From Deltaproteobacteria bacterium (GTDB taxonomy: Bacteria; Desulfobacterota; RBG-13-43-22), in NCBI GenBank assembly GCA_016219225.1, contig JACRBX010000039.1:1-49018 (forward strand): a DNA stretch of 49,018 nucleotides, given 5' to 3'. The notes beneath the pieces were generated by a model. It was not told where the DNA came from. It saw only the letters and a list, made by a program, of their open reading frames with translations, and searched no databases. Shown in pieces: positions 3,753-48,298 of the stretch. The position numbers and the translations under genes are program-made. Numbering within the stretch: the first letter of the stretch is position 1; each line of letters begins with the position of its first letter.

Positions 3753-6700
3753 ATGACCGACCCGACAAAACCAAATGATCATGAGAAGCGGGCCATCTGC
3801 GGCATCTGCTCTGCCGGCTGCTGGGTCATCGTCACTTACAATGAGGCCGGTCGGATCAAGACCGTCCGGGCCGATGAAACCTCGCCGTTAGGGGCTATTT
3901 GTAAGGTCGGTGAGCACTCTGCGGAAATCGTCTATTCCCAGGATCGGCTGCTTTACCCCTTAAAGCGTAAAGGTCCCAAAGGGACTTATAACTTCGAGCG
4001 GATAACCTGGGATGAAGCTTACGAGACCATCGTTGGAAGGCTCCAGTCCATTAAGGCCGAATCAGGGCCGGAGGCCACGGCCATCTACACCGGCAGCGGG
4101 AGTTTTGAACTGGCCTTCTGCGACATGTTTCAACCGAAAGACGTGGCCATTTCCTCGGCCGCCAGCGTCCTGTTTCCCTTCGGCTCCCCCAACACCCTCG
4201 GAGTGGGTGCCCTTTGCTATGTGGCCTTTGCCATGATCGCCCCCCATGTGACCATGGGTCGCATGTTCATGAACATGTTTTCTGATATTGAGCAGGCCGG
4301 GCTCATCGTCATTTGGGGTAAAAATCCGGCCGCCCATTGTCCGCCCCATGACTTCCATCGAATCCAGGAGGCCTGCCGACGGGGTGCAAAGTTAGTGGTT
4401 ATCGATCCCAGGAAAACGTCCCTGGCCAAGTCCTTCAATTCCCAGTGGATACCGATCCGGCCCGGTACGGACGGGGCCCTGGCCCTGGGAATGTGTCAGG
4501 TCATCATCGAAGAGGATCTCTACGAGGGAGACTTTATCAGGAACTGGACCGTCGGGTTTGAACCCTTCGCCCAATATGTTCAACACTTCCGGCCGGAGGT
4601 CGTCGAGCATATCACCGGGGTTCCGGCTGAGACGGTCCGGTCTCTGGCCCGGCGGATCAGCACCACCGACGGCGTTTCTCCGGTGATGTACAGCGGCCTG
4701 GAATACAGCGACGGGGCCGTTTCCGCCATCCGGGCGACACTGGTCCTATGGGCCCTGGCCGGCCAGCTCGACGTGCCCGGCGGGTCCTGCTTCAGTATGT
4801 CCCAAAATCAGTTTCCGATTAATCGGGAAGGACTCATTCCCAACCCCAATGCGCAAAAGGCCGCAGGCTATAATAACTTCCCCATCTACACCAGGTATCG
4901 GGGCGAGTTCCACGCCAATATCCTGCCGGAGGCGGTGCTGAAAAAAAAGCCTTATCCCATCCGATTGCTCCTCAGTCTGGGGGCTTCGATGATCACCTCC
5001 TGGCCCCAATCGGAGATCTGGCGAAAGACCCTTGGCGCCCTGGATTTCCTGGTCTGTATCGACCGCCAGCTTACCGCCGATATGGCCTACGCAGACATCA
5101 TCCTACCGGCCGCTACGTATTACGAAATCGAATCCTACATGCGTTACGGCCCTATCTACCGGATCAGGGAACCGGTGATCCCCCCGGTCGGAGAGGCCCG
5201 GAGCGATTTCTTTATCCTCTCCGAACTGGCCCGGCGTCTGGGATACGGCCATCTCTATCCCCAGACTCCGGTCGAACTTTTGGATCGATCCCTCGGGGGG
5301 TCGGGATTTACCCTGGAAGAGGTCCGTCAGGCCGGCGGGCTCGTCAAAGTCCCAACGGTAATGATGGAGTATAAAAAATGGGAAAAGGGCTTGCTCCGGG
5401 AAGACGGACAGACCGGTTTTGAGACGCCTTCGGGCAAGTTTGAAATTGCCTCTTCTATCCTGGAGGAACATGGTTATGATGCCTTGCCGATTTATGTGGA
5501 ACCCGGAGAAAGTCCGCACTCGCAGCCGGAACTGGCCAAAGAGTTCCCCCTGGTTTTCAACTCCGGGGCCCGTTCCAGGGTGGATATCCACACCCTCCAT
5601 CAAACCATCCCGGCCCTGATGGAAGAAAGGCCGGTCCCGACGGTGATGATCAATACCGCCGATGCCCGGGTTCGGGGTATTCAAAACGGCGATGAGGTCC
5701 ATCTTAAGACCAGGCGCGGTCAGATACGCCTGTACGCACTGGTCACCGACGACATAGTGTCCGGGGCCGTCGAGGCCAGTGCCATGGGGGGCGGGGCCTT
5801 GGGTTCTAAAGCCTGGCAGCAGGCTTGCGTCAATGACTTGACCGACCTGGCCCGCTTTGATCCGATTTCCGGCTTTCCTGTTTACAAGGCCTTGCTCTGT
5901 GAGGTATCCAAGATTTCGGAAGGAAAAAAAGTCCGGACCGGCGGCAGGGGTGAGTATACTTTTGATAGACCTCCGAAACCGTCGAAGGTTACCAGGCCCA
6001 TCTATTTGGATCATAATGCTACTACCCCCATGGCCGAGGAGGTCAAGGCCGCCTTGGTTGCATCTATGGATTCTTTCGGTAATCCCTCCAGCCTCTACGC
6101 CCTGGGGAAGGAAACACGACTGAGCCTGGACAAGGCCCGACGGAGCGTGGCTTTACTCCTCAACACCACGGCCCGGCGCATCATTTTCACCGGCGGGGGT
6201 TCGGAGGCCAATAATCTGGCCATCAAAGGGGTGGCCTTGGCTGACGGGCGGACCCGGAAACATATCATCACCAGCACAGTCGAACACCCTTCAGTGCTAA
6301 ACACCTGCCGTTGGCTGGAAAAGCAGGCCTTCGTCCTGACCCTTCTGCCGGTCGACGGCCAGGGGCTGGTGGACCCCGGAGACCTTAGAAAGGCGATTAC
6401 GGAAAAGACCTGTCTGGTCAGTATAATGCTGGCCAATAACGAGACCGGTTCCATCCAGCCCATTGCCGAATTAGCCGGGATCGCCCGGGAGCAGGGGGTG
6501 CCCTTTCATACCGATGCGGTCCAGGCATTGGGTAAACTGCCCGTTGATGTAGAACGACTGGGTGTGGACCTGCTGACCTTTTCCGGGCATAAGTTTTATG
6601 GGCCCAAGGGTGTGGGTGTTCTCTATGTGCGCAAGGGGATGATGCTCGACCCCCTGATCGCCGGAGGCCATCAGGAGCAGGGATTCCGGGCCGGGACCGA

Positions 6701-7148
6701 GAACATTTTGGGGATCATCGGGCTGGGCCGGGCAGCGGAACTGGCCATCGACAATTTCTCGAAAATGAACCGTGTGCAAGAGCTGCGGGACAGACTGCAT
6801 CAAGGCATTTTGGAAGTGGTTCCCCAGGCCCGGCTGAATGGCCATCCCCGGGAACGGCTGCCCAACACCTTAAACCTGACACTTCCCGGCATCCGGGGAG
6901 AGTCGCTGGTCCTGGCCCTTGACCGGAAAGGAATCGCCATTTCATCGGGGTCTGCCTGCCAGTCGGGTTTTCCCGAGCCATCAAAGGCCTTGACGGCCAT
7001 GGGGCTTACGGTAGAAGAGGCCCATGGCGCGGTCCGCTTTTCTCTCGGCCTCGGCAATACGGAGGAAGAGATCGACCGGACCATCATGGCTATTGATCAG
7101 GTCATTCGTGAAACCAATGAAGTCATCCGGTTCGTTTCCTGCAGATAG
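3753..7148 (+). CDS. Molybdopterin oxidoreductase-cysteine desulfurase fusion; probable metallopterin-dependent ergothioneine synthase (Mes-like)
   Basis: A 1131-residue fusion. Residues 1 to about 735 are a DMSO-reductase-family bis-MGD enzyme. The N-terminal [4Fe-4S] motif uses C16, C19, C23 and C50; FPFGSPNTLGVGALC places C155 as probable Mo/W ligand; a C-terminal molydopterin-dinucleotide-binding domain follows around 590-715. Residues 749-1131 are a complete NifS/IscS-type cysteine desulfurase: LDHNATTP, GSEANN, EHPSVLN, NNETGSIQP, SGHKFYGPKG with PLP lysine K947, RAGTEN, and SSGSACQSG with catalytic C1069. The next gene, 27 nt downstream, is egtD, so hercynine is the likely substrate. 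I infer that cysteine sulfur is passed as persulfide to the metal domain and inserted at C2 of the hercynine imidazole, giving ergothioneine. I recall such an enzyme (Mes) reported from Caldithrix abyssi but cannot verify it here. A formate-dehydrogenase-like role is the alternative. Confidence 0.82.
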   Translation: MTDPTKPNDHEKRAICGICSAGCWVIVTYNEAGRIKTVRADETSPLGAICKVGEHSAEIVYSQDRLLYPLKRKGPKGTYNFERITWDEAYETIVGRLQSIKAESGPEATAIYTGSGSFELAFCDMFQPKDVAISSAASVLFPFGSPNTLGVGALCYVAFAMIAPHVTMGRMFMNMFSDIEQAGLIVIWGKNPAAHCPPHDFHRIQEACRRGAKLVVIDPRKTSLAKSFNSQWIPIRPGTDGALALGMCQVIIEEDLYEGDFIRNWTVGFEPFAQYVQHFRPEVVEHITGVPAETVRSLARRISTTDGVSPVMYSGLEYSDGAVSAIRATLVLWALAGQLDVPGGSCFSMSQNQFPINREGLIPNPNAQKAAGYNNFPIYTRYRGEFHANILPEAVLKKKPYPIRLLLSLGASMITSWPQSEIWRKTLGALDFLVCIDRQLTADMAYADIILPAATYYEIESYMRYGPIYRIREPVIPPVGEARSDFFILSELARRLGYGHLYPQTPVELLDRSLGGSGFTLEEVRQAGGLVKVPTVMMEYKKWEKGLLREDGQTGFETPSGKFEIASSILEEHGYDALPIYVEPGESPHSQPELAKEFPLVFNSGARSRVDIHTLHQTIPALMEERPVPTVMINTADARVRGIQNGDEVHLKTRRGQIRLYALVTDDIVSGAVEASAMGGGALGSKAWQQACVNDLTDLARFDPISGFPVYKALLCEVSKISEGKKVRTGGRGEYTFDRPPKPSKVTRPIYLDHNATTPMAEEVKAALVASMDSFGNPSSLYALGKETRLSLDKARRSVALLLNTTARRIIFTGGGSEANNLAIKGVALADGRTRKHIITSTVEHPSVLNTCRWLEKQAFVLTLLPVDGQGLVDPGDLRKAITEKTCLVSIMLANNETGSIQPIAELAGIAREQGVPFHTDAVQALGKLPVDVERLGVDLLTFSGHKFYGPKGVGVLYVRKGMMLDPLIAGGHQEQGFRAGTENILGIIGLGRAAELAIDNFSKMNRVQELRDRLHQGILEVVPQARLNGHPRERLPNTLNLTLPGIRGESLVLALDRKGIAISSGSACQSGFPEPSKALTAMGLTVEEAHGAVRFSLGLGNTEEEIDRTIMAIDQVIRETNEVIRFVSCR

Positions 7149-7175
7149 AGCAGATAGTACAAGGGAGATTAGGCC

Positions 7176-8186
7176 GTGAACCATCCAACTTTGTCCGCGA
7201 TTGAAGATTTTTTGCAAGAATCGATAACCGAAATAAATAATCGTCCGAAGGGACCTTATGGGATCAATGGTGTCGCGGACCTGGCTGCAGGTCTGACGGC
7301 CCGGCAGAGATACATCCCCTGCAAATATTTTTATGATGCCCAAGGGTCCAGGCTTTTCGAAGCCATCTGCAGGCTTCCGGAATATTATCCAACCCGAACG
7401 GAAATGGGCCTTCTCAAAGAGGTTGCCCCTGGGCTGGCCGGGACCTTGAACCACAAAGACCTGGTCGAACTCGGTTCCGGGGCCGATCGGAAGATAGGCA
7501 TCCTGCTCCGGGCAACAACCCAGGATACCCGGTCCACCCTGCGTTATATCCCGGTGGACATCAGCGATTCGGCGGTCCTTAATTCTTCTCTTAATCTGAA
7601 AACCCGTTTCCCGGAGTTAAAGGTAAAAGGGCTCGTGGCCGATTTTACTTCCCAACTGAAACCGCTTCCTACGGATAGGCCGACCATGTTCCTTTTCCTG
7701 GGAAGCACAATCGGCAATTTTGACGATGTCGAAAGCGTCGTCTTCCTACGGAATATGGCGGCCGTCATGAAACCGGAGGATACCATGCTGATCGGTTTCG
7801 ATATGCTCAAGCCCCTTCCGCTCATCGAGGCAGCTTATAATGATACAAGGGGAGTCACCGCTGCATTTAACAAGAATATCCTGAGGGCAGTCAATAAGGA
7901 ATTGCAGGCCCTTTTCGATCCTTCCTGCTTCGACCATTTGGCCTTCTTTAATGAAAACCACAGCCGGATAGAAATGCACCTGAAAGCCAATCAGGATGTG
8001 GCGGTCAGGATTGACGCACTCAATATGACCCTTGAGATTAAAGAAGGCGAAACCCTTCACACGGAAAACTCACGGAAATTCACCAGGGAAAGTATCGAGT
8101 GGATGGCCGGCCTGGCCGGCTTGACCATTCACGACTGGCGCCAGGATTCCAGTGGGTGGTTTTCTCTGGTGTCCATGGGGTTGTAA
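7176..8186 (+). CDS. egtD: L-histidine N-alpha-methyltransferase (EgtD), hercynine synthase
   Basis: SAM-dependent trimethylation of histidine to hercynine, the first step to ergothioneine. The start is GTG at 7176 with AGGGAG nine bases upstream. 336 residues is close to the family length (about 320). EgtD signatures are present: YFYDAQGSRLFEAICRLPEYYPTRTE near residues 50-75, the SAM-binding ELGSGADRK (from E98), YIPVDISDSAV, and FLGSTIGNF. The last third carries a C-terminal SGWFSLVSMGL. Only 27 nt separate it from the fusion gene, so they are probably cotranscribed. No egtB (oxygen-dependent sulfoxide synthase) or egtA/C/E lies nearby, which fits an anaerobic route. Anaerobic EanA proteins belong to the same methyltransferase family. 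Confidence 0.93.
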   Translation: MNHPTLSAIEDFLQESITEINNRPKGPYGINGVADLAAGLTARQRYIPCKYFYDAQGSRLFEAICRLPEYYPTRTEMGLLKEVAPGLAGTLNHKDLVELGSGADRKIGILLRATTQDTRSTLRYIPVDISDSAVLNSSLNLKTRFPELKVKGLVADFTSQLKPLPTDRPTMFLFLGSTIGNFDDVESVVFLRNMAAVMKPEDTMLIGFDMLKPLPLIEAAYNDTRGVTAAFNKNILRAVNKELQALFDPSCFDHLAFFNENHSRIEMHLKANQDVAVRIDALNMTLEIKEGETLHTENSRKFTRESIEWMAGLAGLTIHDWRQDSSGWFSLVSMGL

Positions 8187-45773: not shown

Positions 45774-46096
45774 TTGAGAAGAACCCGATCAACCCTTCAC
45801 GGATACGCAAGATCGCCGGCAGTTTCGCTTTTATCGAACACCGCTTCCGATACTTTATCAAAACCCTGACCCATCAGGAGCTTTTACTGTATCTCTTTCT
45901 GGTCTTAGCCGCTGATAAACAAGGACTTTCCTATTATACCGCGGATAGCATCTGCTCCTGCCTGAAGATCAGTCTGAAGCAATATCTGAAAGCCCGGCAA
46001 TCGTTGATCCGAAAGGACCTGATCGCTTTCGATGGCCAGTTATTCCAGGTCCTTTCATTACCTTTTTTTACACCATGGAGAGGTCTCTATGATTGA
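45770..46096 (+). CDS. IS21-associated small HTH-like protein
   Basis: 108 residues, ATGA overlap with the previous gene. RYFIKTLTHQELLLYLFLVLAADKQGLSYYTADSICSCLKISLKQYLKARQSLIRKDLIAFDGQLFQVLSLP looks like a winged-helix DNA-binding domain. Its stop lies 8 nt inside istA. It may control the transposase genes. Not a family that I can name. Confidence 0.72.
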   Translation: MIEKNPINPSRIRKIAGSFAFIEHRFRYFIKTLTHQELLLYLFLVLAADKQGLSYYTADSICSCLKISLKQYLKARQSLIRKDLIAFDGQLFQVLSLPFFTPWRGLYD

Positions 46097-47555
46097 TCAC
46101 CGTACTATCTTCGAGATCCACCGTCTGTCTCATGAAGGCTATGGTCTTCGTAAAATCGCCCGGACCCTCAAACTCAGCCGGGACAGTGTCAAACGATATC
46201 GGGATAATCCGAATCCACCCAGACCGGTAATAGTACGCACCAGCAAGCTGGATCCGTTTAAAAACGAGATCCAAAAGTATTTAGAGCAAGACCCCTCGGT
46301 CAGCGGTGCGGTTCTGTATCAACGCTTAAAGCCCCAAGGCTATGCCGGAGGCAGGTCTATTCTGGGGGAGTACTTACAACAGATCAGACCCAAGAAAAAA
46401 CGAGCCTATATCCGCTTCGAATCGCCTCCAGGGGAACAGTTCCAGATCGACTGGGGCCACTTCGGTTCTTTGACTTACGGGAAGACCCCCCGAAAGCTCT
46501 ACTGTTTGGCGGTCATCGAGGCCCATAGTCGGATGCTTTACGCCGAGTTCACCCACTCTCAGAAACAAGAGGCCCTCCATCAGGGTTTACTTAATGCCTT
46601 TCGTTTCCTCCAAGGCACCCCCAGGGAAATCGTCACCGATAATATGCTCACCGCTGTCTTAGAGAGGGAAGGCTCTTTAGTCCGTTTTAATGAAGCTTTC
46701 CTGGATTTCTTACGACCCTTCCGGATCACCCCTAAGGCCTGTCACCCCTATCAACCCCACGAAAAAGGTAAGATCGAAAAAGGGGGCATCCATTACCTCC
46801 GTCATAACTTCTGGCCCCTCAGAACCTTTACCGATCTTTTCGATATCAATCGCCAGCTATGGCACTGGTTGGATACCCAGGCGAATATCCGGCTCCACGG
46901 TACTACCGGCGAAAGGCCAGTCGATCGTTTCAACCCCCAGGCTCTTCAACCCTTGCCCGAGTTTACCCCCGACTGCCGGGAAACCCTCTCGGTTAAGGTA
47001 CACTCCGACTTCGCCATCCGTTTCGACAGCAACTTTTACTCCGTCCCTCCCTGGGCCATCGGTAAAACCGTCATCCTCAAGGCCGATTACCAAACCATCA
47101 CTATCTATCTTCACGAAAAAACTCTGGCTATCCATACCCGTTGTTGGGAGAAAAAACAACGCCTGGAACTTCCGGCCCATCGCGAAGCCGCTTTTAAGCG
47201 TCGGCCTCAGGAATGGCTGGCTACTGAGGTCTCCGCCTTTATCTCCTTAGGCGAAGAGGCCAAGGCCTTTCTGGAGGGTCTGGCCCACAGCGGTCAGCCC
47301 ATTAAAAAAAACCTGGCCAAACTCCTGGCTTTAAAAGACCGCTATGGAACCCCTTTATTGATCCAGGCCCTTAAACGGGCCATGATCCACAAGGCCTATG
47401 GCGCCCACTATGTGGAAAACATCCTCCATCAGGAAACGTCTCCTAAACAGGATCACCCCCCGGTCCAACTCAAACGCCAGGATTTAAACCGTATCCGCCT
47501 GGAGGAGCCCCTCCTGGCCGAGTATGATGCTTATATCCTCAAACGGAAGGACTAA
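46089..47555 (+). CDS. istA: IS21-family transposase IstA
   Basis: 488 residues from the ATG at 46089, which has GGAGAGG upstream and overlaps the previous stop. N-terminal HTH (IFEIHRLSHEGYGLRKIARTLKLSRDSVKRY), then an RNase H-type DDE core with D121 (FQIDWGHFG), D184 (IVTDNML) and E230 (KGKIEKGG). The C-terminal half is normal for IstA. Works with IstB. Looks intact. Confidence 0.93.
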   Translation: MIDHRTIFEIHRLSHEGYGLRKIARTLKLSRDSVKRYRDNPNPPRPVIVRTSKLDPFKNEIQKYLEQDPSVSGAVLYQRLKPQGYAGGRSILGEYLQQIRPKKKRAYIRFESPPGEQFQIDWGHFGSLTYGKTPRKLYCLAVIEAHSRMLYAEFTHSQKQEALHQGLLNAFRFLQGTPREIVTDNMLTAVLEREGSLVRFNEAFLDFLRPFRITPKACHPYQPHEKGKIEKGGIHYLRHNFWPLRTFTDLFDINRQLWHWLDTQANIRLHGTTGERPVDRFNPQALQPLPEFTPDCRETLSVKVHSDFAIRFDSNFYSVPPWAIGKTVILKADYQTITIYLHEKTLAIHTRCWEKKQRLELPAHREAAFKRRPQEWLATEVSAFISLGEEAKAFLEGLAHSGQPIKKNLAKLLALKDRYGTPLLIQALKRAMIHKAYGAHYVENILHQETSPKQDHPPVQLKRQDLNRIRLEEPLLAEYDAYILKRKD

Positions 47556-47557
47556 TC

Positions 47558-48298
47558 ATGTCTGACTTGGAAACGCTTAAAGATAAACTGATCCAACTCC
47601 GTCTAAAAACCATGGCCCAACAACTGGACTCCGTCCTGGATCAGGCCGCTCAAAAAAATCTCAACCTGCCGGCAGTCTTGAACCGTCTGGCCGATTACGA
47701 ACTGGAGGCCCGTCGCCAGACGGCCATTGCCCTTAAGTTCCGTCAATCCCAATTAAGTGATAAACCTACGATTGACCAGTTTGACTTCCACCACCATAAG
47801 TCCCGGCTTGATCAGAAAACCCTCATCCTGAACTTATTCTCCCTCGATTTTATCTCCAAGCATCAGGATATCATCCTCATCGGCAATCCCGGTACCGGTA
47901 AAACCTTCCTGGCCAAAGCCTTAGTCTTTGCCGCCTGTAATGCCAATATCAAGTGTCTCTTTACCAATACCATGGATATGATCAATCACCTCATTGCCGC
48001 TGAAGCCGATCACTCTTTACTTAAAATGCTTCACTTTTATCAATCTCCGGACCTCTTAGTCTGTGACGAACTCGGTTATCTGTCTCTCGGCCCCCAGGGC
48101 TCGCACCTTTTCTTCCAGGTCATCAGTCAAAGGCATGCGGTTAAATCAACTCTGTTGACAACCAATTTGCCCTTTACTGACTGGGGAAAGGTCTTCGATT
48201 CCACCCCGGTGGCCACGGCTATCGCTGACCGTCTCGTTCATAACTCCGAGGTCCTTATCCTGGAAGGACCAAGCTATCGAAGAAAAAATAAATCCTAA
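47558..48298 (+). CDS. istB: IS21-family helper ATPase IstB
   Basis: 246 residues, DnaC/DnaA-like AAA+ ATPase. Walker A GNPGTGKT (109-116), Walker B LLVCDELGYL, then STLLTTNLPFTDWGKVF and the C-terminal ATAIADRLVHNSEVLILEGPSYR, typical of IstB. Begins 2 nt after istA. It selects the target DNA and activates IstA. Confidence 0.93.
   Translation: MSDLETLKDKLIQLRLKTMAQQLDSVLDQAAQKNLNLPAVLNRLADYELEARRQTAIALKFRQSQLSDKPTIDQFDFHHHKSRLDQKTLILNLFSLDFISKHQDIILIGNPGTGKTFLAKALVFAACNANIKCLFTNTMDMINHLIAAEADHSLLKMLHFYQSPDLLVCDELGYLSLGPQGSHLFFQVISQRHAVKSTLLTTNLPFTDWGKVFDSTPVATAIADRLVHNSEVLILEGPSYRRKNKS

Follow-up and report, generated by a model that had tools for sequence, protein, structure and literature searches.

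The window, that is, the whole analysed stretch of 49,018 nucleotides, carries a two-gene locus that, judging from its sequence, very probably belongs to the already published family of metallopterin-dependent ergothioneine synthases (MES). It consists of a gene fusing a bis-MGD (Mo/W) module to a cysteine desulfurase, followed by egtD, and it is highly probable that the pair constitutes an O2-independent ergothioneine pathway. The family, named in the initial annotation, is real: MES was described from Caldithrix abyssi (CaMES; Beliaeva and Seebeck 2022, PMC9516567), and the window adds a well-supported member to a pathway known from this one paper. The window locus itself is ordinary. The greater value lies in relatives outside the window, namely MES that lack the desulfurase and a sister clade that is a concrete candidate for anaerobic ovothiol synthesis.

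The fusion of a bis-MGD oxidoreductase to a cysteine desulfurase, noticed in the initial annotation, is encoded by one uninterrupted reading frame (Table 1). In Pfam, the product matches Molybdopterin (PF00384, 6e-42), Molydop_binding (PF01568, 3e-18) and Aminotran_5 (PF00266, 2e-82), the last being a class-V aminotransferase of the cysteine desulfurase type. The NCBIfam NifS model TIGR03402 is matched with 3e-147, yet under its own cut-off. The top solved relative of the Mo/W module is acetylene hydratase (2e7z, 5e-75), in agreement with what was reported for CaMES (PMC9516567). Acetylene hydratase shares the Cys-ligated bis-MGD and the N-terminal 4Fe4S site with the window module, but it is a hydratase without a desulfurase domain and only distant kin. 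The second gene begins after a gap of 27 nt, as had been annotated. Its product scores 350 bits against TIGR03438 (cut-off 291) and aligns over nearly its full length with the M. smegmatis EgtD structures 4pim and 4uy6 (7e-62). The GSTIGN, AYND and TEnS motifs, which contain substrate-binding residues in the EgtD structures, are retained in this alignment.

Table 1. Positions of the features discussed, in the window or in the named locus.
Feature	Sequence	Position	Strand	Remarks
MES fusion gene	window	3753-7148	+	ATG start, 1131 aa, single ORF
N-terminal bis-MGD (Mo/W) module of MES	window	3753..5936	+	residues 1-728; PF00384/PF01568
C-terminal cysteine desulfurase module of MES	window	5988..7148	+	residues 746-1131 + stop; PF00266, TIGR03402
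EgtD gene, histidine N-alpha-trimethyltransferase (to hercynine/TMH)	window	7176-8186	+	GTG start, 336 aa; TIGR03438; 4pim/4uy6
Desulfurase-free MES, Methanophagales-class archaea (ANME-1-type)	L082	5962-9157
Desulfurase-free MES, Methanophagales-class archaea (ANME-1-type)	L085	1918-5108
Desulfurase-free MES, Methanophagales-class archaea (ANME-1-type)	L086	3123-6321
Desulfurase-free MES, Nitrospirota MAG	L098	449-3749
Desulfurase-free MES, deltaproteobacterial MAG	L090	320-2533
FMN-reductase-type flavoprotein	L082	9302-9925
FMN-reductase-type flavoprotein	L085	5183-5851
FMN-reductase-type flavoprotein	L086	6598-7161
Methyltransferase, sister-clade example	L041	7723-8679
Mo/W module, sister-clade example	L041	8701-10908
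In-frame TGA in nuoL	window	~746-748	-
Pair like IS21-type transposase and helper ATPase	window	46032-48298		near contig end

The possibility that the contig is foreign to this Desulfobacterota genome, in which case the locus would be real and the taxonomic claim would fail, is improbable. It would fit the contamination estimate of 4.81%, the nearest MES being those of Chloroflexota and Bipolaricaulota, and a window NuoJ just 27–29% identical to its same-genus homologues. NuoJ is, however, short and fast-evolving, with its best match (42%) in a genome of the same phylum, and it is too divergent to decide the matter. The composition of the contig is like that of the rest of the genome and therefore makes a binning error unlikely. 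Its tetranucleotide correlation with 18 other contigs of the genome is 0.956–0.984, with matching GC content; the genome's own contigs give 0.93–0.986, other genomes 0.43–0.885, and a Dehalococcoidia contig gives 0.43. The binning error was rejected on this basis.

The protein of L073, from a record titled Caldithrix abyssi HyVt-577, carries all nine published CaMES residues at exactly the published numbers and was therefore taken as the CaMES reference. The window MES has the same domain order and nearly the same length (1131 versus 1136 aa). The residues essential in CaMES are the metal ligand Cys153, the PLP-binding Lys952, and Cys1074 and Cys1135 of the persulfide relay; four N-terminal Fe–S cysteines are also described (PMC9516567). 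The window MES retains every essential residue. The 4Fe4S cysteines C16, C19, C23 and C50 correspond to C14, C17, C21 and C48 of CaMES, the Mo/W ligand C155 to C153, and the PLP lysine K947 to K952, all of which are invariant in 78 aligned homologues. The relay cysteines C1069 and C1130, the latter in the C-terminal tail, correspond to C1074 and C1135.

The one deviation is Gly1092 (GGC, window 7026-7028) in place of CaMES Cys1097, a glycine unique among the 78 homologues, 74 of which have a cysteine at this position. Its codon is one base away from TGC (Cys), and it may be a true variant or a sequencing error. Cys1097 has been called strictly conserved in MES, yet its exchange for serine in CaMES causes only about a two-fold loss (PMC9516567). 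Gly1092 is therefore no bar to MES membership. Cys1097 would thus be a non-defining catalytic feature, whose absence does not exclude the window protein from the family, and a cysteine called strictly conserved in MES may not be so. The comparison with characterised MES that the initial annotation had proposed thus recovered every defining feature accessible to sequence, with the exception of one non-essential cysteine.

Trees of both domains, also proposed there, place each module in the MES clade. The metal module of the window falls into a clade with a support of 100, apart from the formate dehydrogenase and PhsA-like (thiosulfate-reductase-like) enzymes of its own genome, and the MES desulfurases form one clade, supported at 99, which leaves out the NifS/IscS paralogues encoded in their genomes. 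A position of the oxidoreductase inside the formate dehydrogenases, which would have spoken against the proposal, was not observed. The window MES does give generic matches to the Fdh-alpha and PhsA models, and desulfurases commonly sulfurate molybdenum cofactors (PMC9516567), which would suit an ordinary formate-dehydrogenase- or thiosulfate-reductase-type enzyme whose desulfurase only sulfurates its cofactor, as with FdhD/IscS or ABA3. The scores, however, lie far under the cut-offs (252 versus 666 bits for Fdh-alpha, 259 versus 694 bits for PhsA). This low score, the separate clade, the linkage to EgtD and the conservation of the C-terminal relay cysteine that is essential in CaMES leave such an ordinary enzyme with very little probability.

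In the proposed MES pathway, EgtD would supply hercynine (TMH) by trimethylating histidine. The desulfurase half of MES would draw sulfur from cysteine via PLP on K947 and hold it as a persulfide on C1069, from where it would be passed via C1130 in the C-terminal tail to the C155-ligated bis-MGD metal. The metal-sulfido group would then be transferred to the imidazole C2 of hercynine, giving ergothioneine and a reduced metal, which would be re-sulfurated in the next cycle. This chemistry and sulfur route, drawn from the work on CaMES, most likely apply to the window MES as well, and its substrate specificity is predicted from its clade and its linkage to EgtD. The bis-MGD cofactor is presumably made by the host, because the genome encodes many other bis-MGD enzymes. 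Residues, EgtD linkage and clade together support the earlier claim that the pair makes ergothioneine without O2 and with cysteine as the sulfur source. That the locus yields another 2-thioimidazole, e.g. a further-modified hercynine product, instead of free ergothioneine could be argued from the unusual Gly1092, but is hardly to be expected of an operon of EgtD and MES only, which no further tailoring gene adjoins; moreover, four homologues yielded ergothioneine in E. coli (PMC9516567).

As in the CaMES system, EgtD adjoins the window MES and EgtB is missing. The absence of egtB, noted at first for the neighbourhood only, extends to the whole genome, where a profile search found nothing over the TIGR03440 cut-off; two FGE-sulfatase proteins were rejected as EgtB because they score far under it. 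EanB, the rhodanese-type enzyme of Chlorobium limicola, resembles MES in its O2-independent sulfuration of hercynine and in having a histidine methyltransferase as partner, but its fold is unrelated and it obtains its sulfur from polysulfide. Rhodaneses are present in the window genome, none of them adjoining EgtD. The long ones were rejected as EanB since they are secreted and the one compared, the longest multi-domain rhodanese (L033), has no EanB match among the solved structures of the PDB. By solved-structure search and gene context, EanB was thus not recognised in the genome.

The full fusion occurs in 13 of 395 sampled Desulfobacterota genomes, including that of the window. The other 12 fusions are 58–64% identical to the window MES, and EgtD adjoins every one of them, which argues against a chance fusion. 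The initial annotation considered the locus an extension of the pathway to a Desulfobacterota-like genome; MES is indeed present, but the step is not a large one with at least 13 of the 395 genomes of the phylum already carrying it. Two genomes of the window's genus are without MES. A wider scan, in which the aligned N-terminal modules served as the query against genomes, yielded 371 relatives. The best 80 of these 371, mostly from MAGs, include members of Desulfobacterota, Chloroflexota, Nitrospirota, anammox Planctomycetota, Calditrichota, Zixibacteria, Gemmatimonadota, Aminicenantes, Spirochaetota and Chromatiaceae, and also of methanogenic archaea. MES is patchily distributed across many phyla. 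In the wider set, 53 MES-clade loci leave enough room on either side of the gene, and EgtD lies in 46 of them; in the others (L074, L077, L092, L093, L099, L125 and L158), it may be encoded elsewhere or the substrate may be imported.

Among anammox bacteria, the Scalindua MAG OFTM180 carries two copies of the MES gene, each on a contig of its own (L063 and L066). MES was also found in Jettenia, Kuenenia and Loosdrechtia and is therefore widespread in this group.

In the trees of both the metal module and the desulfurase, the window sits with MES of Dehalococcoidia and Bipolaricaulota. It differs from CaMES in this position, on a branch with Chloroflexota/Bipolaricaulota MES and part of those of Desulfobacterota. 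The window EgtD is also closest to the EgtDs of Dehalococcoidia and Bipolaricaulota (61% identity, versus 37–51% for the others listed). Since both trees and the EgtD identities point to the same relatives, the unit appears to move together, which suggests that whole MES–EgtD units were transferred between phyla. The single desulfurase clade and the separation of the metal modules from FDH/PhsA-like enzymes fit a single fusion event.

In five loci of the wider scan (L082, L085, L086, L098 and L090; Table 1), the MES protein stops behind its metal module. The three archaeal ones come from separate assemblies, and the record of L085, although titled Methanomicrobiales, belongs to the same class as those of L082 and L086. 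In these three and in L098, no desulfurase was found in the locus and EgtD begins directly after the stop codon of the metallopterin (MPT) module, for which reason a frameshift or contig-edge artefact was rejected. In the genome of L090, EgtD is located on a different contig. L072, L094 and L121 were set aside from the split forms, as they have frame breaks with the desulfurase still there.

The desulfurase-free MES are 66–68% identical to the window and nest within the fusion clade, the archaeal copies beside the fused L070 in the metal-module tree. A desulfurase split off in relatives had been named beforehand as a finding that would count against the fusion. Some relatives have indeed lost it, but their nested position implies secondary loss and is no sign of an accidental fusion. 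A single origin of the desulfurase-free forms was rejected (AU p 6e-50); the desulfurase was therefore lost at least two times, probably three. The archaeal copies have pairwise dN/dS values of 0.13–0.22 and are thus under purifying selection. A search of the archaeal genomes found only distant desulfurases (29–33%) in G395 and G397, and none reached the search threshold in G396.

For CaMES, intramolecular sulfur transfer was concluded to be obligatory, but the desulfurase-dead enzyme still gave a little ergothioneine with unlabelled sulfur from other sources (PMC9516567). We infer that the desulfurase-free MES take their sulfur from a free donor or from another protein. Their occurrence with EgtD bears on the published claim that a desulfurase of the same chain must supply the sulfur. 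A conserved FMN-reductase-type flavoprotein is encoded after the archaeal MES–EgtD pairs, joined in L085 and L086 by an aminotransferase on the opposite strand. This flavoprotein might serve the desulfurase-free MES as a redox partner.

The sister clade comprises six Desulfobacterota genomes of three families (L021–L026, which are L037–L042 in the wider scan) and is set apart from MES in the metal-module tree, where the branch between the two has strong support. Its protein is a stand-alone MES-like Mo/W module of 735 aa, 49–51% identical to the window, which retains the Fe–S cysteines and the metal-ligand cysteine and ends in an invariant GCVG tail. In all six loci, it is preceded on the same strand, at a distance of about 20–25 nt, by a methyltransferase gene. 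The methyltransferase (313–318 aa) combines a Trm112-like zinc ribbon with a class I methyltransferase domain. For all six, the top NCBIfam model is TIGR04345, the C-terminal 4-mercaptohistidine N1-methyltransferase of OvoA, with 89–113 bits against a cut-off of 170 and 31–51 bits for the next model; as these scores lie below the cut-off, the substrate is a prediction. Among solved structures, the three top matches are the N-methyltransferases of the ovothiol and ovoselenol enzymes OvsM, OvoM and OvoA, both for L038 (3e-26 to 3e-17) and for L041 (3e-20 to 5e-13). EgtD is absent from all six genomes and present in every MES-clade genome of the same search. Known ovothiol synthesis proceeds via the sulfoxide synthase OvoA (PMC12631010), whereas no OvoA sulfoxide synthase exceeds the cut-off in any of the six genomes. 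This gene content predicts a two-gene, O2-independent 5-thiohistidine (ovothiol) locus.

Taken jointly, MES and the sister clade may form a family of Mo/W imidazole sulfurases, in which the sister clade with its OvoM-like methyltransferase leads to 5-thiohistidine or 5-selenohistidine and on to ovothiol or ovoselenol, and some MES use another sulfur donor; we regard this combined proposal as evenly poised between right and wrong. If both leads are true, Mo/W-dependent imidazole sulfuration would be a broader activity, as the MES authors speculated (PMC9516567). Neither the sister-clade type of enzyme nor desulfurase-free MES, nor any O2-independent enzyme for ovothiol synthesis, is described in the open-access journal papers searched, and both forms appear to be unreported.

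Two further features of the window concern its ends. The nuoL gene contains an in-frame TGA, past which the frame continues with recognisable NuoL sequence (TNDLFEIG..., GLPPLAGFFSKE) up to the contig end; the TGA is either a premature stop or a sequencing error. Near the contig end lies a gene pair resembling an IS21-type transposase and its helper ATPase (IstA/IstB), as judged by eye from the translations.
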